Under the pieces are notes generated by a model, which saw nothing but the letters and a program-made list of their open reading frames with translations, was not told the origin of the DNA and searched no databases. This document shows, one piece after another, positions 8,801-55,254 of a DNA stretch of 64,000 nt. A program made the position numbers and the translations under genes. The DNA comes from Mesaphorura yosii. Lineage: Eukaryota > Arthropoda > Collembola > Poduromorpha > Tullbergiidae. Numbering within the stretch: the first letter of the stretch is position 1; every line of letters starts with the position of its first letter. The stretch covers positions 1 to 64,000 of the forward strand of contig WIXG01000017.1 in NCBI GenBank assembly GCA_009869945.1. The letters are read 5' to 3'.

Positions 8801-10470
8801 ATCAGGGAATGGATTGATGAATGAACTCTCAGATTTTGGATTCAAAAAGAGGTTAAAATTACAGAAATATCAGAAATAACGTGCCACCAGGCAAGCTGGC
8901 AGGCAAACTGCAATCACACAAGATACAATAGCCATTAGCTGGACGTGGACACGCATTGCTACGGTATGTATGTACTGGCACTCCACAAGCACGCGCACGC
9001 GGAATTCGCATGAACAGGCAGGCGAACAATAACCATTAACACGTTTGCAGGGAAAGAATTAATGTTAAAAGGATTTTAAAGTTGGAACGACCGAGCCTGA
9101 CAGCTTTGTTGAAATTTATGAGAATTTGTCGTTAGCACTGTCAAATGCAATTGCGAAAGGATGCAATTGGCTAAAGTGCCTTGAAATTTATGTGCCTGGG
9201 CCGCCTGCGCTGCGCCTGGACCTGTTGCATGGTTACAGTTTGACCTACAGATCCTATGTGCTGGAAAATTGGCGCATGAGTCATGCTTCTCGAATGCACC
9301 ATGAAACTCTTGCCCTGTGCTTTGATTGATGGATCTCACAAATCTAACCAGCACTTTCGTCTCTTTTTTGCACGCAGAGTCCTTTAGAACTGCCGGAAGC
9401 GATGTGACTGGAGCCCACTCCTTTACATTCTCCGACAAAATGTCCAACATGCGCATCGACAGTGCAATTCTCCACGTTCACGTCAGACTTAACCAAAGAC
9501 ATCATCACGGGACCAACAAACCAGTTGCAGTTACAATTAGAATCAAGGAATACATTCCGCCAAAGAAGAGGGAGTCGCCCATTCTGAATGACTATGGGTA
9601 AGTGAAAATCAATGCACCACGCGCCGGCGCTGATCTGTCAGTTGGCTAACCGCCGTCGGCAACAACGGTCGTTCTCTTCTCGGTTGCAGTACATTTACAA
9701 CAATCATCACTCCCGGTACAACCGACTACGACAGAACTGCAAACAGCATCTGGGTCCAATTTAATGTTCGTGACTCACTCACGAAATGGTTGGCTAGTGT
9801 TCCAAGCCCTTCACGAAAAATCAGCCTTGTTATTGAAGCAGTGCATTCTGGCCGCAGCCAAGAATTCACGGTTCTCAGAAGCAATGACTCGAACGTGAAT
9901 TGGGTAAGTTATGCGTGAAGCTTAATTATTTCACTGTATTCATTGGTGTGTTCTGTGCTTTACTTTGACTAACTATCTGCTTGTTTCTTCAATCTGAACA
10001 GAATCCGTTCTTTGAAGTTCAAGTCAGCGAGAAAGGAAAGTCAAGGCCAGCACGTAACATTGGAATGGTTTGTGATGAAAATTCAAAGGAGACTCGATGC
10101 TGCAGATACCCACTCACCGTTGACTTTGACGATTTTGGCTGGGACTGGATTATCGGTAAGTATTTTGACGCTTTATCAAGACCCCGACTTTAATCATTCT
10201 GCAATCAAAAATTCATGGCCTCACTTTTGTTTTATTGCAGCTCCCAAGAAATACGATGCCAATTACTGCTCTGGCGAATGCCCGTACGCCTTTCTTCAAA
10301 AGTACCCGCACAACCACATCGTTCAGCAAGCCATTCCAACCGGAGTCGGTGGCCCTTGTTGCGCTGCGAGGAAACTTTCGCCCATCACGATGCTCTACTT
10401 TGACGCGGACGGAAACATTGTCTTCAGCGTTCTTCCCGGTATGGTCGTTGACAAATGCGGATGTTCATAG
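5807..10470 (+). CDS. myo: Myoglianin (GDF8/GDF11-type TGF-beta ligand)
   Basis: Secreted dimeric ligand of the myostatin/GDF11/myoglianin group, which in arthropods signals through Activin-type receptors and dSmad2 in muscle, glia and ecdysteroid control. Exons 5807-6470, 9378-9597, 9690-9903, 10002-10155, 10241-10470; phases join cleanly to 493 residues. The start is taken at ATG 5807, just before a hydrophobic signal segment ([18 protein letters not shown]); the frame is open upstream but has no better ATG. The prodomain has a Ser/Asn/Gly-rich low-complexity stretch (about residues 60-130). An RPAR furin site (residues 381-384) releases a 109-residue mature domain, the same length as vertebrate myostatin. 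It has nine cysteines, including [22 protein letters not shown] and a C-terminal KCGCS. Intron 1 is 2.9 kb, the others under 100 bp. The gene converges with the ADMP gene. Confidence 0.95.
6471..9377 (+). other. Large intron 1 of myoglianin
   Basis: This 2.9 kb intron splits a phase-1 codon between the prodomain N-terminus and the rest. It has a consensus GTAAGT donor and a GCACGCAG acceptor. I see no nested gene; a 163-codon open stretch at 7627-8118 lacks an ATG and any recognisable motif. A long first intron in a developmental ligand gene often carries enhancers, but nothing here proves it. Confidence 0.6.
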
Positions 10471-11968: not shown

Positions 11969-13880
11969 TTAATGGCAGCCACATGATTCAGCGACCATGT
12001 CAAAATACTGTTTGAGTACAACATTATCGTGATCATCATAGAATAGAAGGGTGATTGGCAAGAGCCTCGTCGGGACGCAGCACGGCTGTCGAACGTTGCT
12101 TGCCAATTTCAATTCGTGGACAAAGCTTTGTACTGTCGCGTGGTTTGACGGTTTCACCTGAAAAACCAAAATTGGCATGAAGATCATGAATAGAAGATTT
12201 ACTACTTGCCACATGCCTGTTGCCCCAACGGGAATACGCAGGCTCCGTCACAGAAAAATGCGTTGTATCCTTTCGGTGAAATTATCCACGATGACCAGCC
12301 GATTGCTTCAAAGCTCACGAACAAATCATGGCGTGTGCATTCAGCCACGCCTTGGCGGACTCTCGCCCTCTCCTGTAGGACGCTGTTGACATCGGTGTTT
12401 GGAGAAGTCGTGCTCGATGTTGGCCCGGGATCAGTCGCATTTTTGGATCGTCGACTCCGAAATCGATTGACTGAATTCGGATGGCGAATTGAATCCTTGT
12501 ATAGCAACGAGTGATGAAATCTCGGATTCTCTAAACCTTAGAAAATAGGAAGCTAATAGAAAAAAGTGAAGTCGACAAGAACATTTTATCGAAGGGCTTT
12601 TACTTGATGTAGGAATTTGCAGCAATTGCTCGTTGTCCTCGTCGTTCTCAAAAGATTCGGTCCCATTCTCACTTTCCCCGGCCGGCCTCGTTAGTTTCTT
12701 CCCGTTTCTACTGACTTTGAGTGTGAGAGGAGGCTTTGTGGGTAATAATTGCTGCTGAATCTCTGAGTCCTCATTAAACAACACCAGAATCGGCTGCTTA
12801 GAATGATGCGACGTCTCTCCTCTCCTTGAAAATCGAATTGGAACGCGTTCGCCGCTCAAACTGGTGGCTGCGATCAGAAAACCATGATTTGGACGCTCTC
12901 CTTTGATCCATTCAAGCACGGCCTGCGAAAACACAGTAATTGTAATACAATCCGCGTGCCTAATCACATAATTGCAGAATTGTGGATTTCTTACCTGCTT
13001 CACATTAAAAACTTCCCACCCGGATCCCAACGCCGGGACGTAATTCACAGCAATCAGTTTATGCAGGTCTGGAATATGGAGCTGGCTCGGATCGTGGACT
13101 TGGTACAGGCTCAGAATATAGAAAGGCGTGAGATAAAGTGATGGATGCAAATCTTCGTGTGTGGTCCGCATCCTGTGAAGGTGCAATTCGGCTTCCAGCA
13201 CGCCCTCACTCACACTCATTCCGGCCGACACATTAAAATAGAAGAAGTCATTCAACGAATTGTTGCGTTCGATGTACGAGCGCACGATGTGTGCGTTGTA
13301 TGGATTTCGGGCTCTCGTCACCCCGTGCGAGTCTGTGATCGTGTCGTACAAGTCAATCATGAACTCAGGCGCGGGACCCAATTTCTTGCTGATTTCATCA
13401 CGGCGAAGGATCGATTCAGTTGATGCGATGCCAAATATCTATGGCAAATATGGGTCAGGCCAGATTAACGATCCTCATGCAGCCACGCAAATGACAGACA
13501 GATTCACGGACTTCTACGTTTACCTTCATCAAATTCTCCACGGCCCTTTCCCTCAGGTTCTGGGAAGAGTCCAGTATTATTTCATCGACTGTTGCCACTT
13601 GGTCTTCATCTTCTTGCGACGGGATCAGCAACAGCTTGCTTTCACGATGCGATGTGACCTCGGACTCCGACTCCGACTCGCTACTACTGAAATTGGTCAC
13701 TGAACTCCCATTTAAATTGGGATATACAAGCTGCCCAACTACGGTTGTTGAGTTTTTATCGACGTCGACGTCGAGAATTTCCTCAATTTCACCTGCTGGA
13801 GTTGAAATGCAGGTTGGAAGTGCAAAGAGAAGAGGACTAATTAAGAACAGCCCAAGATAAATGCACGTTAGGCAATTCAT
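11969..13880 (-). CDS. admp: ADMP-type BMP ligand (anti-dorsalizing morphogenetic protein)
   Basis: Secreted BMP-family ligand. Exons 13880-13524, 13438-12995, 12922-12604, 12530-12217, 12157-11969 give 540 residues in one continuous frame. The N-terminus is a signal peptide ([19 protein letters not shown]). Exon 2 begins with IFGI, the usual start of the BMP prodomain core. An RSRR furin site (residues 398-401) precedes a mature domain of 139 residues with seven cysteines. It is assigned to ADMP rather than Dpp/BMP2/4 or Gbb/BMP5-8 on two blocks: [20 protein letters not shown], and a C-terminus with [18 protein letters not shown], where ADMPs also read NVVLKQY-DMV--CGCH. The tandem Pinhead neighbour supports this. 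The last intron appears to use a GC donor. ADMP is absent from Drosophila but retained in several other arthropods (recalled, not checked). Confidence 0.9.
12158..12216 (-). other. Probable GC-AG intron in the ADMP gene
   Basis: This 59-base intron separates FPLGQQ from [10 protein letters not shown]. The acceptor is a strong TTTTTCAG. No GT lies at a phase-0 codon boundary before the in-frame TAG, whereas CAG|GCATGT does, and that join gives exactly the spacing of ADMP and BMP family members between FPL and NHA. Confidence 0.7.
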
Positions 13881-18144: not shown

Positions 18145-21665
<3,521 letters not shown>

Positions 21666-22365: not shown

Positions 22366-22981
22366 ATGTCAGGCCACAACATTGAAATTAAGGCCAAGAT
22401 TCCAGTCACGATGGATAGAGCCCGTGAAACTGCTCTGCGGCTTGCTGATCCAAACCACAAACCGGTGATTTTGCATCAGTCGGACACATTCTTCAATGCA
22501 CCACTTGCTCGTCTGAAACTTCGACAAGAGAATGGCCACACTACGCTCATTGCGTACGAACGGCCTGACGGTGTGACTGGGGCCAAGATCAGCAACTACA
22601 TTAAGATTGCGATTCCAGATCACGATAACATGCATGACGCACTCCAAAAGGCGCTGGGAGTCAAGGGAAGAGTTGTCAAGACCCGTGAGCTCTACATGGT
22701 TGAATGGAAGGGGCTTACGTCAAGAATTCATTTGGATAACGTTGAAGGTCTGGGGGAATTCATAGAATTTGAGGTAATTTGACTAGTGCTGTGCCTTAGT
22801 ACGAGAAATTCTAATCGCCGGACAGTTCTCATGTGTGTCTTCTCGTACTGTACAGGTTCTGATTTCTGATTTGTCACAAGTATCAAATGGGGAAGCCATG
22901 GCCAAGTATTTGATGGAACAATTTGAACTGAAGGAACTGCTCGACGGTGCTTACATGGACAAAATCGCTGCACAATCATAA
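22366..22981 (+). CDS. CYTH-domain protein (triphosphate tunnel metalloenzyme fold)
   Basis: CYTH (CyaB/thiamine triphosphatase) proteins bind triphosphorylated substrates in a beta-barrel tunnel with metal ions. Exons 22366-22773 and 22856-22981 encode 177 residues. The N-terminal strand reads NIEIKAKI, the ExExK-type signature with Asn at the first position, as in many CyaB-like proteins of the RNVEIKA form. Further support comes from alternating charged strands (LARLKLRQENG, NYIKIAIPD, VVKTRELYMV, IHLDNVEGLGEFIEFEV) typical of the fold. The length fits a single-domain member, nearer to invertebrate class-IV-cyclase-like proteins than to human THTPA. The substrate cannot be told from sequence. 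AATAAA follows at 23030-23035. No signal peptide, so probably cytosolic. Confidence 0.85.
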
Positions 22982-23087
22982 ACCTTTTCTTCAATGGTGT
23001 TTTTTTGTATGATCAAAATATACAGTGGAAATAAATAATGTCTTGTGTTGATGATGACTGGCTCATCTGTATATGAATGTAATGTAA

Positions 23088-23626
23088 TTAGTTAAACTTA
23101 TCCGGCTCTGAAAGGCGATTTGCAGCTTCGGTCCGAATGGCGATGGTGTCGTCAATAAATCTTTGCACTTCACTCGTTATTTTCCGAAAAGGTGCTGACT
23201 GCACCAATTTTAATGACAGAAATCAGTCAACTAACGATTTAACTAACGTAGCAGTACGAAGACAGAGCAAAATAAACTTGTACTTAATGACTAGTGACTG
23301 ATTGTACAACTTTTTAGAAGATAAATTGAGAATCGAACTGTGAAGACAAAGAAAACGAACGAATACGAATACACTTTTTCTGACGTAATTCTGAATGTGA
23401 AATCAACCGGTTTCCTTCCACGGCGACATCTTGATTTTGGTCGAATGTTATGGTGGATTTCATATCACAATCTAATATGTTCATGGCTCCTCCCGGAGGT
23501 GATCGAATCACACCTGAGTGTCTTTATCGACGAGGTTCGGCGGTCGAGAAATGAAAACGGAGACGAATACTGATTAGTACTTGAACAGCTCATTGATTCT
23601 GACTGACCGCTTTGGTCGCCCTCCAT
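23088..23626 (-). CDS. Possible small unidentified gene on the minus strand
   Basis: Two protein-like pieces lie here on the minus strand. From ATG at 23626 a 37-codon segment begins MEGDQSGQSESM and ends at a possible CAG|GTGTGA donor at 23514. A terminal piece (about 23198-23088) after a GTGCAG acceptor reads FRKITSEVQRFIDDTIAIR and stops at 23088. A strong CTTCACAG acceptor around 23330 could open a middle exon. I could not join all pieces with certainty and do not recognise the product. It would converge with the CYTH gene, about 100 bases between stops. It may be a real short gene, or chance. Confidence 0.25.
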
Positions 23627-24061
23627 TGTATTCACATCTCATTATTCCATAACTCATCAATCACCTCAAGACATTTCGCGATATTCATGTGTCCAAGAAC
23701 TGCAAAGCAAAAAATGAGAATTTCCAAGAGTACAATGGCTGACGCGAAACCAGTTTCTTGTTTATGGTTTTTATGGCAGTGGAAGAGTAGAAGACGCACG
23801 GAACGCATCGGGACTGCATTTTTTGTTTTAATCTTTTAATTATGGCAATTCACAAGTAGCAATTTATGAGTGAAAAATTCTGACGCTACGCTTCTTTGCG
23901 TCTTGCGTGAAATTCGCAAATTCTCACATCAGTCGCGAATCGTGAATGCTAGTGCTGACAGCGAGAATCAAACCAAGCGACAGACGCAGCCGCAGTGCAG
24001 CAATTGTCGAGATTCTTTTGACGACGTGACGTGGTACTTCGTCCTTGTTAACGTCTTAACA

Positions 24062-27000
24062 ATGCTGCAGCATTTCAAGCTCAGCGTTGTAATCCTCTTT
24101 TACGTCTTAAATTCTGTCTACTCAAAAGAAATTCCGAAATGTGAGCCGCTGCATCCGCCCGAGGTAAGAAATTGCGTACACGTAATTCTACAGACGAGAG
24201 GCGGTCATGGTATTTTCATTTTCGCACATTGAATGCTCAAATTTTTGATTCTTCTAGCATGTTGATCTCGTCTGCACTCACTCGAACCAAACCAATTCCT
24301 GCAAGGAGCGCCAAAGCGTAGACACGATTGCCCACTACAAATGCACGCAGTATTACATTCCAAGCAACACGCGCCTTTCCGCGCGTGGGGACGCGGTGAG
24401 GCTGGATCTTCGGTGTCGGCAAAACGGAACCTGGGCTAAAATCGAGGAGTTTGAGTCTTTCACGTGTTCTGAAGGTAAGTATAATTATTCGTCTATTTTT
24501 AAAGTATTCGCTAGTAGGTACTGTGATTTTCAATTCCAGACTGCGGAAAGCGTTTAGTCAACTCCAAGCCACTCATCGTGCACGGAGTCTCGTCCAACCG
24601 GACGGTGTGGCCTTGGCACGCGACGATTTACATGCGCCGTGGCCAGCAATACGACTACATTTGTGGTGGAACGCTGATTCGTCGCGGAGTCGTTCTCACT
24701 GCTGCTCATTGCGTCTCGACGGATGACGAGAGGCCGGTGCCGTTGAATGCAGACTGGTTCAAAGTGTTTGTGGGGGCCGTAAGTGTGAAGCATGACGACA
24801 ACATGCAGGCGGAGGGCGCACAAGGCTTCCAGGTTCGGAAAATTTACATCACAGAGCACTACGACGCGAGGAAAGACTTCCACGCTGACATTGCGATTCT
24901 GCACTTGGCTGGGACGATGCGATTCAGCGACAGCGCACTGCCTGTTTGCCTCCCCAATGATTTGGCGATTGACGTGAATGCGATCAAGCCTGGGAAATTC
25001 GGAGATGTAAGAAATGTCGTAGGCGAATAAATTACAAACTACTCAAATGCCGGCCAGGCCAGTAATTTCGAATCTGTGACAGATTGTCGGATTCGGCATT
25101 GACGAGACTGGAAACAAATCCAAGGCTTTGAAACATGCGAAATTGCAAATAATGTCCAACCCGGAGTGCCTCCACAGCCTGCAGCAGATACTGACAGAAT
25201 CCCAGTTTTGTGCGGGGAACCGCTACGGTCAGAGCAATAACTTTACAACAGTTTGCAACGGTGAGCAGAAAACGTGCACATGCCGGGAAATCTGTTTTCT
25301 TACGATGTTTTATATTTTTTTATATTTCACGGCGCTTGCACTGACTGCTGATGGCACATGAACTGAAAGGTGACAGCGGAGGGGGATTTGTGTACCCATC
25401 GTCCGTACTCGGAAAGTACCACATTCACGGCATCGTGAGCACTGGGGGCCGGGTCAAAGGCCAAGTCTGTCAAAACTACGGAGTCTTCACGCGTGTATTT
25501 AATTTCCTTTCCTGGGTCCGTGACGTCCTGGAGCGAATCAGCGGAAACGTAATCAGAGATCTCGCAGCCAATGTGAAGTTCCCATTTGTGCTTCGGGGGG
25601 CGGTGCGTCCAGACGGCGAGATCGACCGTTTCCGGTTTGTGGGCATCCCCCGCGACTGGGATTCCCGGATCCTGACCGTCGAGTTCACGAATGTGGATCT
25701 GGATCCAGGGCTCCTGCTGGAGAATTTGGAGTACAATGCGAAGACGATTGAAGTGCTGAACCTCACGCTGGTCAAACTGGACACGCTCGTGATTGAGAAG
25801 CGAGTGCGGCTTCCTTTTCTGGAGACCTTCATCTTGGACGTTGTGGAAGACGATCTTGAAGTGAAGCCTGGACACCAGTATCCCGAATCTATCACGAAAG
25901 AGTACCTCAAGTCGCTGCTGTTTTTCGAGAAAGACTTTGACGAACACCCGGTCACTTGGAGAATGAAGCACTTGACCCAACTGGGCACGAATATTGAGCT
26001 GACTGTCGGAATTTTCAAGCTCGTCAACGTCCGACACGACGAACGAAGAATTGCACTATCACAAATCCCATTTTATCACGAGATTCTTGAGCATGTTTCT
26101 GCTAACTTCAAACTCAAACATTTGGCGCTTAATCAGGGGTACGACTTCGTTTTCGAGACGCTGCTTCGGTTCGCGCCCACGCTCGAGCATCTGATTATCA
26201 GCAAAATGCAGCTCAAATCAAAGGCGCAGACCTACGGGGAGTTGGATTTAAGCAGCGTACTCTCTAAACTGAAACAACTCACCGAGTTGAGGATCGTGAC
26301 TCCGAGGGAGTTTGAATTTGGTACCGGGCCGAACGTGGCACTGGACAAGCTTCCTTCGTCTCTGAAACAGCTGGCCTTCGCCGGTACTGAAGTGTCCTTG
26401 TACTTGACGCGGCCGACTCCGAAAGGCTCAGAGAAAGTTCGACGTAAGCAGCAGCGACGATTTTATTTCCCCAATCTGGAAACGTTCACATGCGATTTTT
26501 GCGGGATGGACGATAAAATTCGGGAGAACTTTCATTGGGTATTCAAGACCATCAGCAAACTCGTTCTGAAAACGCCGCGCATGGCTTTCAACGTCAAACG
26601 ATTGGTGGATCGCATGGAGAACTTAGAGTTTATTCACATCAGTGACCGGGACGTTGACAATTTAACGGGCGCCAAGTTGAACGGGACCAAATTCTACGGT
26701 CTGACACAATTTGAGGGGTACGACCGCATTCCTGAAGGTACGGACAGTTTCATTCTCGAGCGTGTGGTCCACGGAAACTCCACAACGTGGAAGATACGAC
26801 CTTCTTCAGCTGAAGAAGAACGGCGGAAAGAATTTTTTGAACACGGGCTCGGTAACTTCTGGACATCTGCCGAAGAGTACGAAATCTTATCACGACTGAC
26901 GCCGAATGAGCTGAAAGCGAAACAGACTGGTGAGTACAAGTTTAACGGGAGCACTGCGGACCCGGACCAGTTCCACCCAATCAGAACGATTCCCAAGCTC

Positions 27001-28284
27001 CTGCAGCCGTACCTGAAAAGCATTGAGATGAGCCACGCTCAAGTCGTGCCGGAAGTGATGCAATTTTCCATTCGTCACTGCGTCAATCTGGAATCGCTCA
27101 CGATGACCAGTGTGAAGGTTCTGGGCCTATTTGACAACCGCTTGGTGGAGCTGCCTAAGCTTAAGCACTACAAACTCAGTCGCAAGCTGTTTTCTTCGCA
27201 CTTGTCGCAGCAGCCCGCAGAATACATGAAAGACTTGGACGAAATACAGTACGTCGCCAATTTCCCGTTTGAGGAGTTTGAGCACGACCCGGAAACGGGC
27301 GAACGCGGTCAATTTTTGCACTACGCATCAAATATATTTCAGAGTGTTCATCTGCTCAGTGTTTTCATGGACTACGGTGGTTGTGTGATAATCAACCTCG
27401 ACAGAGAAGAAGGCGTTCTCACCTCTGCGCTTTCTTTCACATGGTGGATGCTGGAAGACTTGGTTAAGAACACCGACAACGATCCGCCACTAAAACGGCT
27501 CAGTTTGCGGGGTCAGAAGCTGAACAAGATCACGACCTTTATCCCGGAGACTTTGACCCATCTTAATCTGGAATATAACAGTTTCTTCGACCATGGCGAA
27601 GTTTCACAGCTGCTGACGTCTGGGAATCTGACTTACCTGAAGGACGTGCGCATGGCTCACAATTATATCAGTGACTACTCTGCCCTGCTCACCCTCAACT
27701 TGTCCGATTTCAGGGACCTGGCAGGAACTGTTGAGTACCTGGAGCTCAATAATGTGAATCTAACACACTCCGGAGACAGTTTTGTGTTTGGCGACCAATT
27801 GAAGTTTGTGCGTCTGGAGGCTTGCTCGTTTGCGGACGCGAACAAAAACAAATCCATACTGACGAATTTCACCAGAATCTTCCCGACCCCAAACTTGGTC
27901 CTGGTCGGGAAAGCGACTGACGACAGCGCTGAATGGATTGAAGAAATCCTGGTTAGCGTGTGGGACGACGCGAACACGACCACAAACTGGATTTACGTGG
28001 GGCAGTCTTCATTCCACTGGAAAAACAAGCAAATTCCCAACACATTGCATGCGATCGGAGTCCCACCGTTCGATAAATTCATAATTGTGAAAAAGAAGGG
28101 GACTTGGTCTTGGCTCGACCCCGGCCACGGGTTTGATGAGGAGTCAATTGTGCAAGCGCTTGAATCTAAATTGGCATCATTGCCTGATAAGCTCACGACT
28201 GAGGCTGATTTTGGGAAGCGAACGACGGGAGCCGAATTTGGAAAAAGTGGGTGCGAGCCCCAAATTAATTCACTGCGACGTTAG
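24062..28284 (+). CDS. Secreted CCP-like / chymotrypsin-fold serine protease with long LRR C-terminus
   Basis: Exons 24062-24163, 24258-24474, 24540-25006, 25083-25260, 25370-28284; 1292 residues. Signal peptide (KLSVVILFYVLNSVYS), then a six-cysteine complement-control/wonton-like module (residues 27-105) ending with a linker Cys (DCGKR). The protease domain spans about 107-378: activation site PL|IVHG (Ile119), His163 in TAAHC, Asp223 in DIAIL, Ser324 in GDSGGG. The residue at chymotrypsin position 189 is Thr, so trypsin-like Arg/Lys specificity is unlikely. This layout recalls initiator proteases such as ModSP and HP14. Residues about 390-1240 are irregular leucine-rich repeats (LKRLSLRGQKL, LTHLNLEYNSFF, VEYLELNNVNL). 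No membrane segment follows. The LRR part is one 2.9 kb exon while the protease part has four introns; the intron before exon 5 splits the Gly codon of GDSGG. AATAAA at 28303-28308. I know no standard name for this architecture; an immune or clotting role is inferred. Confidence 0.85.
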
Positions 28285-28580
28285 TTTTCATTGTTATGTA
28301 TAAATAAATATCTATAAGACTCAATAATTTCCATTTTGATTTAATTTTCGTGAACGTTCTTTAATGAATACTCGTCAGTCGCCACCCTGACGTTTATGAT
28401 GCGAATTCGAAGAACCGACCGCAGAATTAATTTCTCATAACCGAGCCGAACCTCAGGCAGCTAATTTAAGTTAATTAGCAAGGCGAAGGAAAAATACCCA
28501 CTGGACATAACTTCGTATGAATTGCTTTGGTGCATCACCAGTCAACACAAGTGAGGTCATTATTCTTTGACGGGCACAAT

Positions 28581-29758
28581 ATGGAAACCTCCGAATTCAT
28601 CGACGGATTCTTACTCTCCTTCTTGTGCGTGTTTGGACTGATTGGAAACTTGCTCAGCGTGGTCGTGCTTCTTCACAAGGAGATGAGGTCTTCGACCAGC
28701 TGTTTACTCATCGGATTAGCCGTGTCAGACAGCGTATTCCTCGCCGTTGAGTTGTACCAGGTTGGAATTCCAAACGTGAAGGAGTACTACGATATTTATC
28801 CATTCCTGAATTTTTCCACGTCGATTCTCGACGCGTACGTCAGAACGTACTGGTTTTTCATCGTCAACGTTGGTAAGTCCTTAAGCTTTTAAATCCGCCT
28901 TCTTTGTGACTGTGACTTGACTTAATTATTGATTGTATTGAATTATTCACATTCCAGCCCAATCAATCTCCATCTTGCTCACTATCGCCATCACGGTCGA
29001 ACGCTACATCGCCGTCGTCCACCCGTTCTCAGCGCGCGAATACTGCACGGTCCGAAAAGCGTTGCTGGCACAGTGCATTGTTGTCTCCCTGGCCGTGGCT
29101 GGTTCCTTTCCGGACGTGTACGCATTTTCATTTTGGAAGCAGGGCTCCGGTGACGACGTAGAGTACTACAACAGGCGAACAGAGTACTTTGACAGCGACA
29201 CGTACCAAATATTCCATTTGACGGCACGGCCAATCTATCAGTATTTGGTTCCATTCGTCGTGATCGCTGTGCTGAATACGAAAATTTACTTGCAGGTAAG
29301 GAGTTAATTGTTACTGAATAGTTGTGGACCAAATTGACTGATTTTGAACTTTGGGCTCCCGCCTGCAGATTCGTAGGGCTCAAGCCCGCCGTGCTGAGAT
29401 GACACAGTCACATAAGGACCAGCTGCAGATTGCCGTCATGCTTCTTGTTCTGGTGTTGGTCTTCGGAATCTGTACCCTGCCCAGGATAATCCACTACGTG
29501 CTGTATATCATTTACCATGACTACAGAGTGCGGTCGTACGCGATAGGCGAGGCGCTCGAGTTCTTTTACACAATCAGCGAAATCCTCATTGTCGTCAACT
29601 CCTCCATGAACTTTGTCATTTACACGACGAAAGGAGCCAAATTCAGGACCGTGCTGCAAAAGATGGTTTGCTGTAGATACAAATTCTGCAGGAGAGAACG
29701 CCGGACGACGCTGACGTACACCGCCAAGAAAACCAGCTCTATTGTGACGGCTCTCTGA
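28581..29758 (+). CDS. Rhodopsin-class GPCR, FMRFamide-receptor-like
   Basis: Seven-helix peptide-receptor-like protein of 339 residues. Exons 28581-28872, 28958-29295, 29369-29758. The ATG at 28581 leaves only about six residues before helix 1, which is unusually short. Family marks: GNLLSVVVLL in helix 1 (Asn1.50), LIGLAVSD in helix 2, ERYIAVVHPF at the end of helix 3 (ERY for DRY), a helix 6 with GICTLPR in place of CWxP, and NSSMNFVIY in helix 7, where NPxxY has lost its proline, as in several FMRFamide-type receptors. The basic C-terminal tail contains CC and C residues that could be palmitoylated. AATAAA at 29873-29878. The ligand cannot be inferred. The gene follows the protease-LRR gene by 300 bp on the same strand and ends about 300 bp from the exn stop. 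Confidence 0.85.
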
Positions 29759-51429: not shown

Positions 51430-53329
51430 GACTTATTTTGACGCAGCTGCAGGCAGTCAAAGTCAAATCTCTGAATCTCTCATTCTGTCTTCCGAGCACA
51501 GGAAGACATGAACTGTAATCCCATTGCCATTGCCATTTACTGCCAAAAAAACACCAGCCACCAAGAGAATGAAGACCTGATTCCGATTTTCATTCCAATT
51601 TTCTGCTACAGCAGACACAGGAAGGCACACGACGAGGGGAAAGTGAATCAGCTTAACTTTCCATCCAATTTTCTCCCTGCTCTTTCCATTCTGTCAATAA
51701 GGACTCCTCTCAATGAGATTCAGCTCAATAAAAGTCATGTAGCTTTCATTTAACGTCGCGTCCCGTCTTGTTGGGTCCGTCATCTCATTCAAGACAGGCA
51801 GGCAGGCGGAGAAATGATCAATATTCATTCATTCATTTATAGCTTTATTGAGCAAAGCAAAGAACAAATGAGCTCCCGCTGCTGCTGCTCCCGTTTTCCA
51901 TTCTCCTTTGACTTTTGCACTTATCCACTGCTCTCCATTGTGGGTTGTGCAACTGCTCAAAGTGAAGCAGCAGTTGATGAGTTGACGAATTAGGCGTGAA
52001 TTGACCCAATAAACCCATTTCCAGCTTCTTTCTCTATTCTATTCTATTTTTGTCGCCATTACTAAAGAAGTCAAGTCACTCAAGTGCAAGATACCAAGAA
52101 AGAAAGTTTCCACTTCCATTTCCCAGGCAATAACAGTAAGCGAATGAAGTACGAGCTCAGAATTTCCATGATAAACGAACCGGGACCGAAAACAAGACAC
52201 TGCGCTGGACTCTTTTGGCAGTTTACAGGCTTCCAAGTGCCTGGAACTCTTCTGGAATGCAGTTGAGTGGATTCAGCAATTCGGCTCACAAGTCATAATA
52301 ATAACATTATTTCAAATTCCAACAACCTCTCAACTCTCGAGAGCTTTTTTGCTGTTTTTCGTGTTACACAACCGCTTTTCGAGCTTAATATAGCCATAAA
52401 GCCATATATCACTTCGCTGCAGTATTTTTGTGTTCCTAGTAAACTATCAAACCAGGAGAGCCGTGCCGCGCGTGGCGTGTAATATGCTTGCTGTTTCCAT
52501 GATATGCTAGGGTTATCGAGTATATCGGGCACGGGACATGAACGTTGAAGTTCCATGCATTCAACGAACACGGCAAGAAGTTGGATCAATAAGAGTCTAG
52601 TCTTTTGGCTTGGCTTGACTCGCCTTTCTCCTGGCCTGGCCATTCATAATGCACAATACCCGTACGTCTTTCTCCATCTCTGTAGTCCGTATTACACAAT
52701 CATCATGCCTCCCTTTTCTGGTGCTGGTGTGGTGCTTACGCTTTTGCTTTCTGCTTTCTCTTGCCTGGCTTCTTTCCTTTCCACCTCAAGAATGCATGCG
52801 CCACGCCACGCCAATGCCAATGCAATGCAGGGCAGCGCAGGAGAGAAGCACGCAAAGGGCATAGGCGATCCCGTCTTGCAGCCAACTGCCTCTGCCTTGC
52901 CTTTCTTTTCTTTTGATTAAAAAGAAGACGCAGCCATTTTGATGGAAGAGCTTTCCCCAGCTCGCTAGTCCTGTGCTACTACGCTACACTGCTGCTCCTA
53001 CGTTGGGTGCTTTCTTTCTATCTCTACAGGAAGCACAGTTATTGTTTGCTGGGGCGAGCATCATCATTCGTCATTAGCAGCATCCATCCAGCAAGAATTG
53101 ACGAATTTATAATCGCAGTAGTCGTAATGAGTCGTTTATTTTGCTAAAACGTACCGAGTCGCGGGTACGTAACTCGCGAGTGGAACGGAGAAAGCTTACT
53201 CAATTTGCCAAATTAGCTAAATAGCATAACAGTCAGAGTGCTCGAGTTCTTTCGTAGTAGTATTTGAGTAGTGCCCTGTGCAGTCAGTGCAGTGCTGTGC
53301 CCCTTCAGTCCGTCAAGACGAATTCAACA
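51430..53329. other. Noncoding region upstream of p35
   Basis: I see no convincing exon here. The last few hundred bases should contain the p35 promoter and 5' UTR; the frame is open from 53264 but the conserved MGTVLS start is at 53330. Trinucleotide CTG runs occur near 51877-51890. Confidence 0.45.
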
Positions 53330-55254
53330 ATGGGCACCGTTCTAAGCTTTTCACCAAAGTCCACCACCATTCCAACCTCGCACAGTTACTGTGCGAATGG
53401 CAGCATCAGTCTCGGTGGGCTCGGTGACCCCGCAAACCTCAACCGCCTGAATCCACCGCCAGACATCCTCCTCAACAATAACAACAATTCGAATTCGAAG
53501 GAGAATCACGCTCTCAAAGATAGCAACGGAAACAATAACGGCGGTGGCCAGCAGCAGAATCATGGGCACGGGAGTTTCACGAACCTCAAAAAGCACGCAC
53601 AGTTCCTGAACGCACTTTCCTGGAAACGGCTCAATAGCAGAAACAAGCAGACGGTGACGACGACGACAGCCACGGCCACGACGACGACGACGTCACTCAC
53701 GGGCGGCAGTGGAGGCGGCAACACGAAGCATTCCGGGGCGTGCTGCAAAAACCACCACCACCATCATCTGGTCCCGAACAATCACGTGAACAACAGCAAC
53801 GGGAATCACACAAACTTCAACCTCAACAACAATATTAACGCGAATGGGCATCACAGGCTTCCATTGAACGAGCAGGCGTTCCTGAACAATCAGCACAACA
53901 TCAACGTACACAAGAATCAGCAACTGAACAACAGCAATGCAAACAATCTTAACTTGAAGAACCTCAACATTCACGGTGGCGGTGGCTGTGGGAAAGGCCA
54001 ATCTGGACCAGTACTCTCGCACCGTGGGCTCGATTTAGTGCGGTGTCCCTCCTCACACCACGGAAGCAACCGTGTGGATAGTTTAAACTTAAACAGTACT
54101 TGCATTAGCAGTAGTAACAAGTTCGCTCCCAAAGCGATCCTCACCACCGGTCCACTGGTTGGGCGAAGAACAGTCATCCAGGCATCAACGTCAGAGTTAC
54201 TCAAGTGTTTAGGCGTGTTCCTCAAACGAAAATGCACTAAGCTTAAGGACTTTCAACCCTCCGACGCAATCCTGTGGCTCAGAACGGTGGATAGGAGTCT
54301 TCTGCTCCAAGGATGGCAGGTAAGGGCCGGAAATTCTTAATCAAGTCACGAAATGTAACGATTACGTTCAAATTTCGCCATTCAATTCAAAGAGCGTCAT
54401 TGGCGTTTTACAAATAGAAACAATTCAGGCAGATTAGAACTGCAGCTGCGACGTTTATTTTTAAGCATTTCATTCAATCTGCAGGACATTGGCTTCATCA
54501 ATCCAGCCAACATTGTCTTTGTGTATCTGCTGATTCGCGAGGGTCTCTGGTTCGGTCCAAATTTCAATGCAAATAACCACGGCTCCAGCAGCAGCGGAAG
54601 CTTTAGCATTCTAAGCAAGAGCAGCAGCATCAACAACTTTCTCCACCGAAGCTCCAACACCCCGAATAATTCGAACAATAACCAGAATCAGCCGTTGTCC
54701 GCCAGCAACTGTAACAGCACCTGCACGAGCACCACGACGAGCCCCAACAGCAACTCTGTGGACTCGGCGAGCAACAGTAGCCTCTCCAGCAGCGACTCCA
54801 ACGGGAACTTCAGGACAATGTCAAATTCCCACTCAACCTCTTCCGGACTGAACCGGGTAGCAAATTCCAACGACGGCGGTGGCGTTGGCGGGCGTGGCGC
54901 TGCTGGACCGAAGACGTTCTGGGACTGCATCGAGACTGAGCGAGATTTACACGCGTACGTTCTGACCTGCCTCTATCTTTCATACTCGTACATGGGCAAC
55001 GAGATTTCATACCCACTCAAACCGTTTCTTGTCGATGACAACCGCGAGAGATTCTGGGACAGGTAAATGAAGAAGTTACAGGCTTAATTAGCGATATTCA
55101 CTGCTTCATTTACTCACGGGCCATGTGTGTATCTATTTTCAGGTGTCTCAACCTTGTGAATGGAATGTCTCGCGACATGCTACGAATTAATGCTGAGCCA
55201 GCATTCTTCACCGAAGTCTTTTCCGAGCTGAAGTCAGTTGGTGTGACTCTGTGA
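53330..55254 (+). CDS. Cdk5alpha: Cdk5 activator p35 (CDK5R1 type)
   Basis: Cyclin-fold activator of the neuronal kinase Cdk5. Exons 53330-54319, 54485-55062, 55143-55254; 559 residues. The start at 53330 gives MGTVLSFSP, the N-myristoylation sequence of p35 (human MGTVLSLSP), so it is preferred over an in-frame ATG upstream. A long Asn/His/Ser-rich region fills residues 30-270. The activator domain begins at about 280 with [14 protein letters not shown], then [20 protein letters not shown], and ends with [20 protein letters not shown] and [20 protein letters not shown]. Between IREG (about 350) and TFWDC (about 474) there is a Ser/Asn-rich insertion of roughly 120 residues that human p35 lacks. 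Human p35 is 307 residues. A distant AATAAA at 56958-56963 would imply a 1.7 kb 3' UTR. Confidence 0.96.

Follow-up and report, generated by a model that had tools for sequence, protein, structure and literature searches.

A predicted springtail serine protease with sequence marks of HP14/ModSP-type initiators and a partly leucine-rich-repeat-like tail

Insect immune cascades, according to the portions of the articles cited here and throughout, keep recognition (PGRP, GNBP/betaGRP) separate from the first protease, HP14 or ModSP (PMC10732536, PMC11818254), which is reported to autoactivate once recognition proteins and ligand are provided (ModSP, PMC10732536; HP14, PMC11818254). The LDLa part of HP14 gains affinity for betaGRP2 upon glucan binding (PMC7215089), and the domain orders listed for ModSP (PMC10036332) and for honey-bee SP49, the HP14 orthologue (PMC1761132), end with the protease. 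Leucine-rich repeat (LRR) proteins of the mosquito hemolymph organise complement upstream of serine proteases (PMC7580898). Here we describe a gene on the forward strand (24062-28284) of a 64,000-nucleotide (nt) window, the whole stretch of DNA that was analysed, taken from positions 1 to 64,000 of contig WIXG01000017.1 of the springtail Mesaphorura yosii (assembly GCA_009869945.1). Its predicted product places an HP14-like protease ahead of a long, partly LRR-like tail in one chain.

Gene structure and domain order

The gene rebuilt from the raw sequence consists of five exons that join into 1292 codons plus a stop, with no internal stops, and its four introns (94, 65, 76 and 109 nt) are GT-AG in every case, which bears out the single continuous, well-phased gene proposed in a preliminary description of this DNA. 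The frame opens at ATG 24062 and closes at the stop codon 28282-28284. Exon 1 (24062..24163, + as for all that follow) encodes the likely signal peptide (approximately residues 1-21, by eye) and the first Cys of an N-terminal module, a six-Cys sushi/Wonton-like segment of residues 27-104 whose remainder lies in exon 2 (24258..24474). Exon 3 (24540..25006) supplies the linker Cys108, the predicted activation site Leu118/Ile119 (24572-24577), His163 (24707-24709) and Asp223 (24887-24889), and exon 4 (25083..25260) the second beta-barrel as far as the first base of the GDSGGG Gly codon, including pocket residue Thr318 (position 189). Exon 5 (25370..28284) contains GDSGGG with Ser324 (25375-25377), the end of the protease at about 25539, the whole C-terminal tail and the stop. 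In a pattern scan, an AATAAA poly(A) signal lies just past the stop (28303..28308, +), and TCAGT at 23929..23933 (+) is a weak candidate for an arthropod initiator, recognised by pattern only and accompanied by three further TCAGT/TCATT matches in 23001-24062.

The protease domain is matched by Pfam Trypsin over residues 119-371 (7.9e-40, all 220 model positions covered), and 537 distinct solved sequences match it at E ≤0.001, thrombin being the best among the matches listed (2.6e-28). The catalytic triad His163, Asp223 and Ser324 is complete, at the positions first proposed for this chymotrypsin-fold protease, with Ser324 in GDSGGG and with a DIAI motif present. Cysteines of the S1 disulphides are in place (148/164, 291/305 and 320/355, with the linker 108/243), their pairing being what we take to follow from S1 numbering. 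The activation site reads SKPL/IVHG, with Leu118 at P1, and the pocket, judged from its residues, would be T/G/G at 189/216/226 compared with D/G/G in trypsin, positions that we presume from S1 numbering anchored on Ser195, Cys191 and Cys220. A non-trypsin pocket together with a Leu at the protein’s own activation site would fit self-activation.

The linkage of protease and tail is most directly seen in exon 5. The exon 4/5 junction (25260/25370) interrupts the Gly codon of GDSGGG, which splicing restores, and with intron 4 retained the frame terminates ahead of the catalytic Ser195 (Ser324). Exon 5 itself (2.9 kb) sits within a single 979-codon open frame, and since Ser324, the protease end and the entire tail all fall in this one exon, the fusion is independent of any splice prediction. 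An alternative in which two neighbouring genes, or two transcripts encoding a protease and an LRR protein, were mistaken for one could draw on GTAAG/GTGAG donor-like sites inside exon 5 (25435, 26444 and 26930), through which shorter isoforms are possible. It is opposed by the shared open exon, by the absence of AATAAA/ATTAAA within exon 5 (a scan of 24001-29000 found two, at 25026 in intron 3 and at 28303), by a G+C content at third codon positions that shows no step at the protease/tail boundary, and by a correlation of 0.78 between protease and tail codon usage, which lies within the 0.62-0.84 range of tail chunks versus the rest. We rejected this highly improbable alternative because the protease end and the tail are common to one exon; as predicted here, the two almost certainly form one gene. 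An assembly join inside exon 5 may be conceivable, but nothing seen points to one, and the 64-kb window contains no N letters. As a separate observation, the intron 3 AATAAA (25026) and an exon 5 donor-like GTGAGTA (26930) could yield truncated isoforms.

At the N-terminus, the signal peptide of the preliminary description is supported as likely, by eye, and has the highest Kyte-Doolittle score in the protein (1.42, barely above the next). N-glycosylation sequons are in excess both in the mature chain (16 versus 7.7 expected, 16 being reached in 15 of 5000 shuffles) and in residues 381-1282 (11 versus 5.5 expected, 79 of 5000), an excess that fits secretion, and the predicted product fits a secreted soluble protein of ~145 kDa before glycans. 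The Cys residues of the N-terminal module (27, 40, 49, 63, 87 and 104) are spaced by 12, 8, 13, 23 and 16, and its YxC and CxxNGxW motifs are, by eye, what we take to be sushi-like. To that extent the CCP/wonton-like module described previously stands, as a six-Cys segment with sushi-like motifs. The only Pfam similarity of this segment (24140-24467) is to the hormone receptor domain HRM, at a sub-threshold E of 0.013; no Wonton model was among the Pfam hits, one sushi-like module was found ahead of the protease, and a solved-structure search with the N-terminal module by itself returned six matches at E 1 or worse, none of them meaningful.

Likeness to HP14/ModSP-type initiators

Honey-bee SP49 carries DIAI, GDSGGG and the activation site SKTL/IVNG (PMC1761132 Table 1). 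Among the 57 honey-bee genes of that source, SP49 alone combines DIAI with GDSGGG and is alone in being listed with at least two of the three marks DIAI, GDSGGG and Leu at P1; for SP24 and SP29, which have DIAI, no activation site is predicted (PMC1761132). The window protein carries all three SP49 marks, by a criterion drawn from one species’ table. Its likeness to the HP14/ModSP/MSP group (honey bee SP49, Manduca HP14, Drosophila ModSP, Tenebrio MSP), as far as the cited portions describe it, comprises an S1 domain with DIAI and GDSGGG, a Leu activation site of the form SKxL/IVxG as in SP49, a non-trypsin pocket and a sushi-like module directly ahead. The SP49 pocket, SSS, is classed as elastase-like (PMC1761132), and a non-trypsin primary specificity would therefore be common to the two proteins, similar in kind and not identical. 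For the Helicoverpa initiator SP41 the putative cleavage site is VDVL, and for its substrate cSP1 it is TDKL (PMC7215089); as both end in Leu, a Leu-cutting enzyme can serve self-activation as well as the next step.

Several observations weigh against this kinship and the reading built on it. A T/G/G pocket is not listed for any of the 57 honey-bee genes, SP49 having S/S/S (PMC1761132). LDLa repeats were found neither by Pfam in residues 1-420 nor by a simple pattern in the six frames of the window, and no Pfam CCP model matches the N-terminal module, the part of the earlier assignment that did not stand. The protease is not the last domain, as a tail of ~910 residues follows in the same exon; in HP14/ModSP the recognition modules precede the activation site and belong to the other chain, whereas the tail of the window protein is part of the catalytic chain. 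A hydrophobic stretch at residues 980-998 scores 1.38, so that the signal peptide is not distinctive by Kyte-Doolittle values, and both peaks are lower than the usual transmembrane threshold of 1.6. No relatives were found in viral contigs or in bacterial and archaeal genome contigs, where arthropod genes are not expected and whose result is uninformative on conservation. Finally, the kinship was judged from the motifs of one species’ table.

Taken together, we regard an initiator of HP14/ModSP type as somewhat the likelier classification of the predicted protein. It probably functions in the manner of HP14/ModSP and may share descent with them, but we do not assign it as a member. The initiator-like protease of the preliminary description is supported by sequence marks (DIAI, GDSGGG, Leu P1 and non-trypsin pocket), with the LDLa repeats missing.

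CLIP-domain proteases offer a further comparison, in that their S1 domain too is tied to an N-terminal module through a linker Cys, and the TDKL site of cSP1 belongs to a Helicoverpa clip protease (PMC7215089). No CLIP model matched in Pfam, and no adjacent Cys pair occurs in the window protein. Such a pair is a clip hallmark, and we know of no C-terminal LRR tail in CLIP-domain serine proteases.

Evidence for leucine-rich repeats in the tail

The tail comprises 914 residues (379-1292), and its relation to LRR proteins is suggested mainly by comparison with solved structures. All eight matches of the middle third at E ≤10 are LRR proteins, three of them TLR2-VLR hybrids (E 0.0046-0.014) and the other five weaker (E 0.74-1.3), as are 24 of 25 for the last third, mostly internalins with internalin B the best (E 0.0063), which gives 32 of 33 for the two thirds together. 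The residue-shuffled last third, the only third shuffled as a control, returned no solved-structure match. The LRR families matched are TLR2/VLR, LGR5, a plant resistance protein, internalins and TLR7, with E <0.1 in TLR2-VLR and internalin alone, and the matches locate LRR-like stretches at residues ~859-945 (26980..27240, +) in the middle third and ~1027-1105 (27484..27720, +) in the last. Motif spacing is consistent with these matches: the position +10 from strict LxxLxL anchors, which was picked from the LRR consensus and lies outside the selected motif, is hydrophobic in 9 of 13 cases against a background of 0.32 (binomial P 0.0065; +19 is equally high among strict anchors), and pairs of loose anchors 20-28 residues apart number 20 versus 8.1 expected (57 of 3000 shuffles reach 20).

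Other results speak against LRRs. No Pfam LRR model exceeded its cut-off in the whole tail, its thirds or nine pieces (best LRR_1, 15.8 versus 20.6 bits), and unrelated Pfam families reached E 0.12-0.32 in three tail pieces, equal to most LRR hits; NCBIfam returned nothing on the tail. The first third (residues 379-685; 25540..26460, +) contains several LxxLxL motifs but matches neither a family nor, at E ≤10, a solved structure, the whole tail has two solved-structure matches at E ≤1 (TLR2-VLR, 0.051, and a tRNA methyltransferase, 0.77), and the four matches of the 555-770 piece include no LRR protein (best E 0.14). LxxLxL motifs are modestly enriched (40 versus 29.3 expected, 103 of 5000 shuffles reaching 40), as is LxxLxLxx[N-like]xL (7 versus 3.5, 260 of 5000 reaching 7); the strict pattern, at 13 versus 2.4 and 0 of 5000 shuffles, was devised post hoc and is not independent. 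Across the 40 loose anchors, hydrophobic residues at +10 do not outnumber those at +19, +21 or +26, and Asn seldom occupies LRR position +8 (0.07). When 11 repeat pieces were aligned with MAFFT, the result was too gapped to give a useful profile, and single-sequence AlphaFold models of the tail (914 residues) and of a 213-residue LRR-like piece were unusable at mean pLDDT (the per-residue model confidence) of 32.9 and 39.7; the structure prediction suggested in the preliminary description thus speaks neither way.

These results leave some room for a tail that, instead of an LRR solenoid, has some unrelated fold rich in leucine or consists of a repeat that has decayed, as might be supposed from the missing model matches, the unmatched first third, the non-LRR matches of the 555-770 piece and the unusable models. 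We consider such a tail quite unlikely, given that nearly all matches of the middle and last thirds are to LRR proteins of several families and that the shuffled control gave none. LRRs are very likely present in the predicted tail; they are probably partial, irregular and fewer than the ~850 residues first supposed, of which the two weakly matching stretches stood and the first third did not.

Proposed mechanism, alternative roles and meaning

The best reading of the locus, which we hold at an even balance, would be a modular initiator protease with a recognition or docking part behind the protease. The protein would be a secreted zymogen of ~145 kDa, with a signal peptide, a six-Cys sushi/Wonton-like module, a chymotrypsin-fold protease and a partly LRR-like tail. 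At a target surface, clustering or a conformational change would raise the local zymogen concentration, and the zymogen would cleave itself or a neighbour after Leu118, releasing Ile119 to form the salt bridge with Asp194. The active enzyme would then cut a downstream zymogen whose P1 residue is Leu or otherwise hydrophobic. A Cys108-Cys243 link would retain the short N-terminal (light) chain. The LRR tail, still in peptide linkage with the catalytic chain, would anchor the active protease at its place of binding. That the tail is a recognition or docking part controlling activation is advanced tentatively, at rather less than an even balance. In its furthest-reaching form the proposal describes an arthropod initiator without an LDLa adaptor array (lost or never had), with its own LRR solenoid on the catalytic chain. 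Such a protein, which we consider rather unlikely, would need no separate PGRP/GNBP: it would itself bind a ligand of microbial or damage origin and set off a Toll, melanisation or clotting cascade. Sensor modules and an initiator protease are also joined in one chain in horseshoe crab factor C and in MASP/C1r, with CCP-type modules in front; there the sensor modules precede the protease, and no LRR is known. The tail also shows weak matches to the TLR2-VLR, LGR5 and TLR7 chains of TLR ectodomains and other extracellular LRR proteins; it differs from TLRs in that neither a clear transmembrane segment nor an intracellular signalling domain was found (Pfam, hydrophobicity), and its output would be proteolysis.

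Secretion, self-activation, an immune function and the role of the tail are what we infer from the sequence, and two other roles can be set beside the modular initiator. The tail might serve as a docking or stabilising scaffold for hemolymph partners (a thioester protein, a downstream zymogen, a clip-domain homologue or another LRR protein), with the trigger coming from elsewhere, by analogy with LRIM1/APL1C and TEP1; we judge this possible, if somewhat unlikely. In mosquitoes there is a precedent for secreted LRR proteins as carriers around serine protease cascades: the LRIM1/APL1C heterodimer keeps cleaved TEP1 stable, and hemolymph becomes depleted of CLIPC9 and CLIPA28 when LRIM1 is knocked down (PMC7580898). 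The likeness to the window protein is by description only, as hemolymph LRR proteins around serine protease cascades, and LRIM1 and APL1C differ in being separate proteins that form a disulphide-linked heterodimer (PMC7580898). In the tail described here, Cys accounts for 6 of 914 residues and Cys-rich LRR caps are not obvious, which could suit a scaffold. Such caps are a feature of extracellular LRR proteins, and LRIM1/APL1C are not known to have a protease domain. Nothing in the sequence distinguishes docking from ligand sensing, so that a sensor and a scaffold would look alike.

The other role, which seems unlikely, is that of a non-immune extracellular protease (in development, clotting, egg or cuticle) whose tail would bind a matrix and whose HP14/ModSP marks would be superficial. 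Insect S1 cascades do also act in dorsoventral patterning (PMC1761132), thrombin is the best solved-structure match listed (which may reflect the contents of the PDB), and the immune role proposed here is argued from sequence marks. DIAI, GDSGGG, the Leu at P1 and the six-Cys sushi-like module point, on the contrary, to the initiator group.

Within the window, a tblastn search for paralogues recovered the gene’s own exons and three chance-level matches (E 4 or worse). Literature searches aimed at trypsin and LRR in one chain found no such architecture, within an incomplete coverage of the literature, and “LRR” or “leucine-rich” is absent from the main text of PMC10036332 and PMC11818254 as represented here. 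The same architecture may already lie unremarked in springtail or crustacean databases.

The neighbouring genes encode other families. Upstream lies a CYTH-domain gene (22366-22981, +; E 4.5e-15) whose only solved relative at E ≤0.001 is PH1819 (1.8e-08), and downstream, starting ~300 nt past the protease-LRR gene, a rhodopsin-type G-protein-coupled receptor gene (28581-29758, +) with seven-transmembrane matches in three open frames. Further away are a TGF-beta superfamily ligand domain (10021-10470, +; 1.8e-19), a TGF-beta superfamily propeptide (12434-13438, -; 2.3e-13) and a CDK5 activator (p35-like) domain spread over two open frames (53261-55063, +). A piece of CFAP91 (20428-21210, -; 2.2e-34), a cilium/flagellum-associated protein, suggests that the host has flagellated cells, for instance sperm. 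Neither a tRNA nor an Rfam match at gathering score was found in the window.

How recognition switches on the HP14/ModSP zymogen is, to our knowledge, not fully settled. With an HP14-like protease and an LRR tail in one natural chain, a single recombinant protein could address whether ligand-driven clustering suffices to start a cascade. If true, a self-contained trigger of the kind outlined above would amount to a Toll-ectodomain-like sensor with a protease output, and the fusion would add proteases to the membrane receptors that carry LRR sensors.

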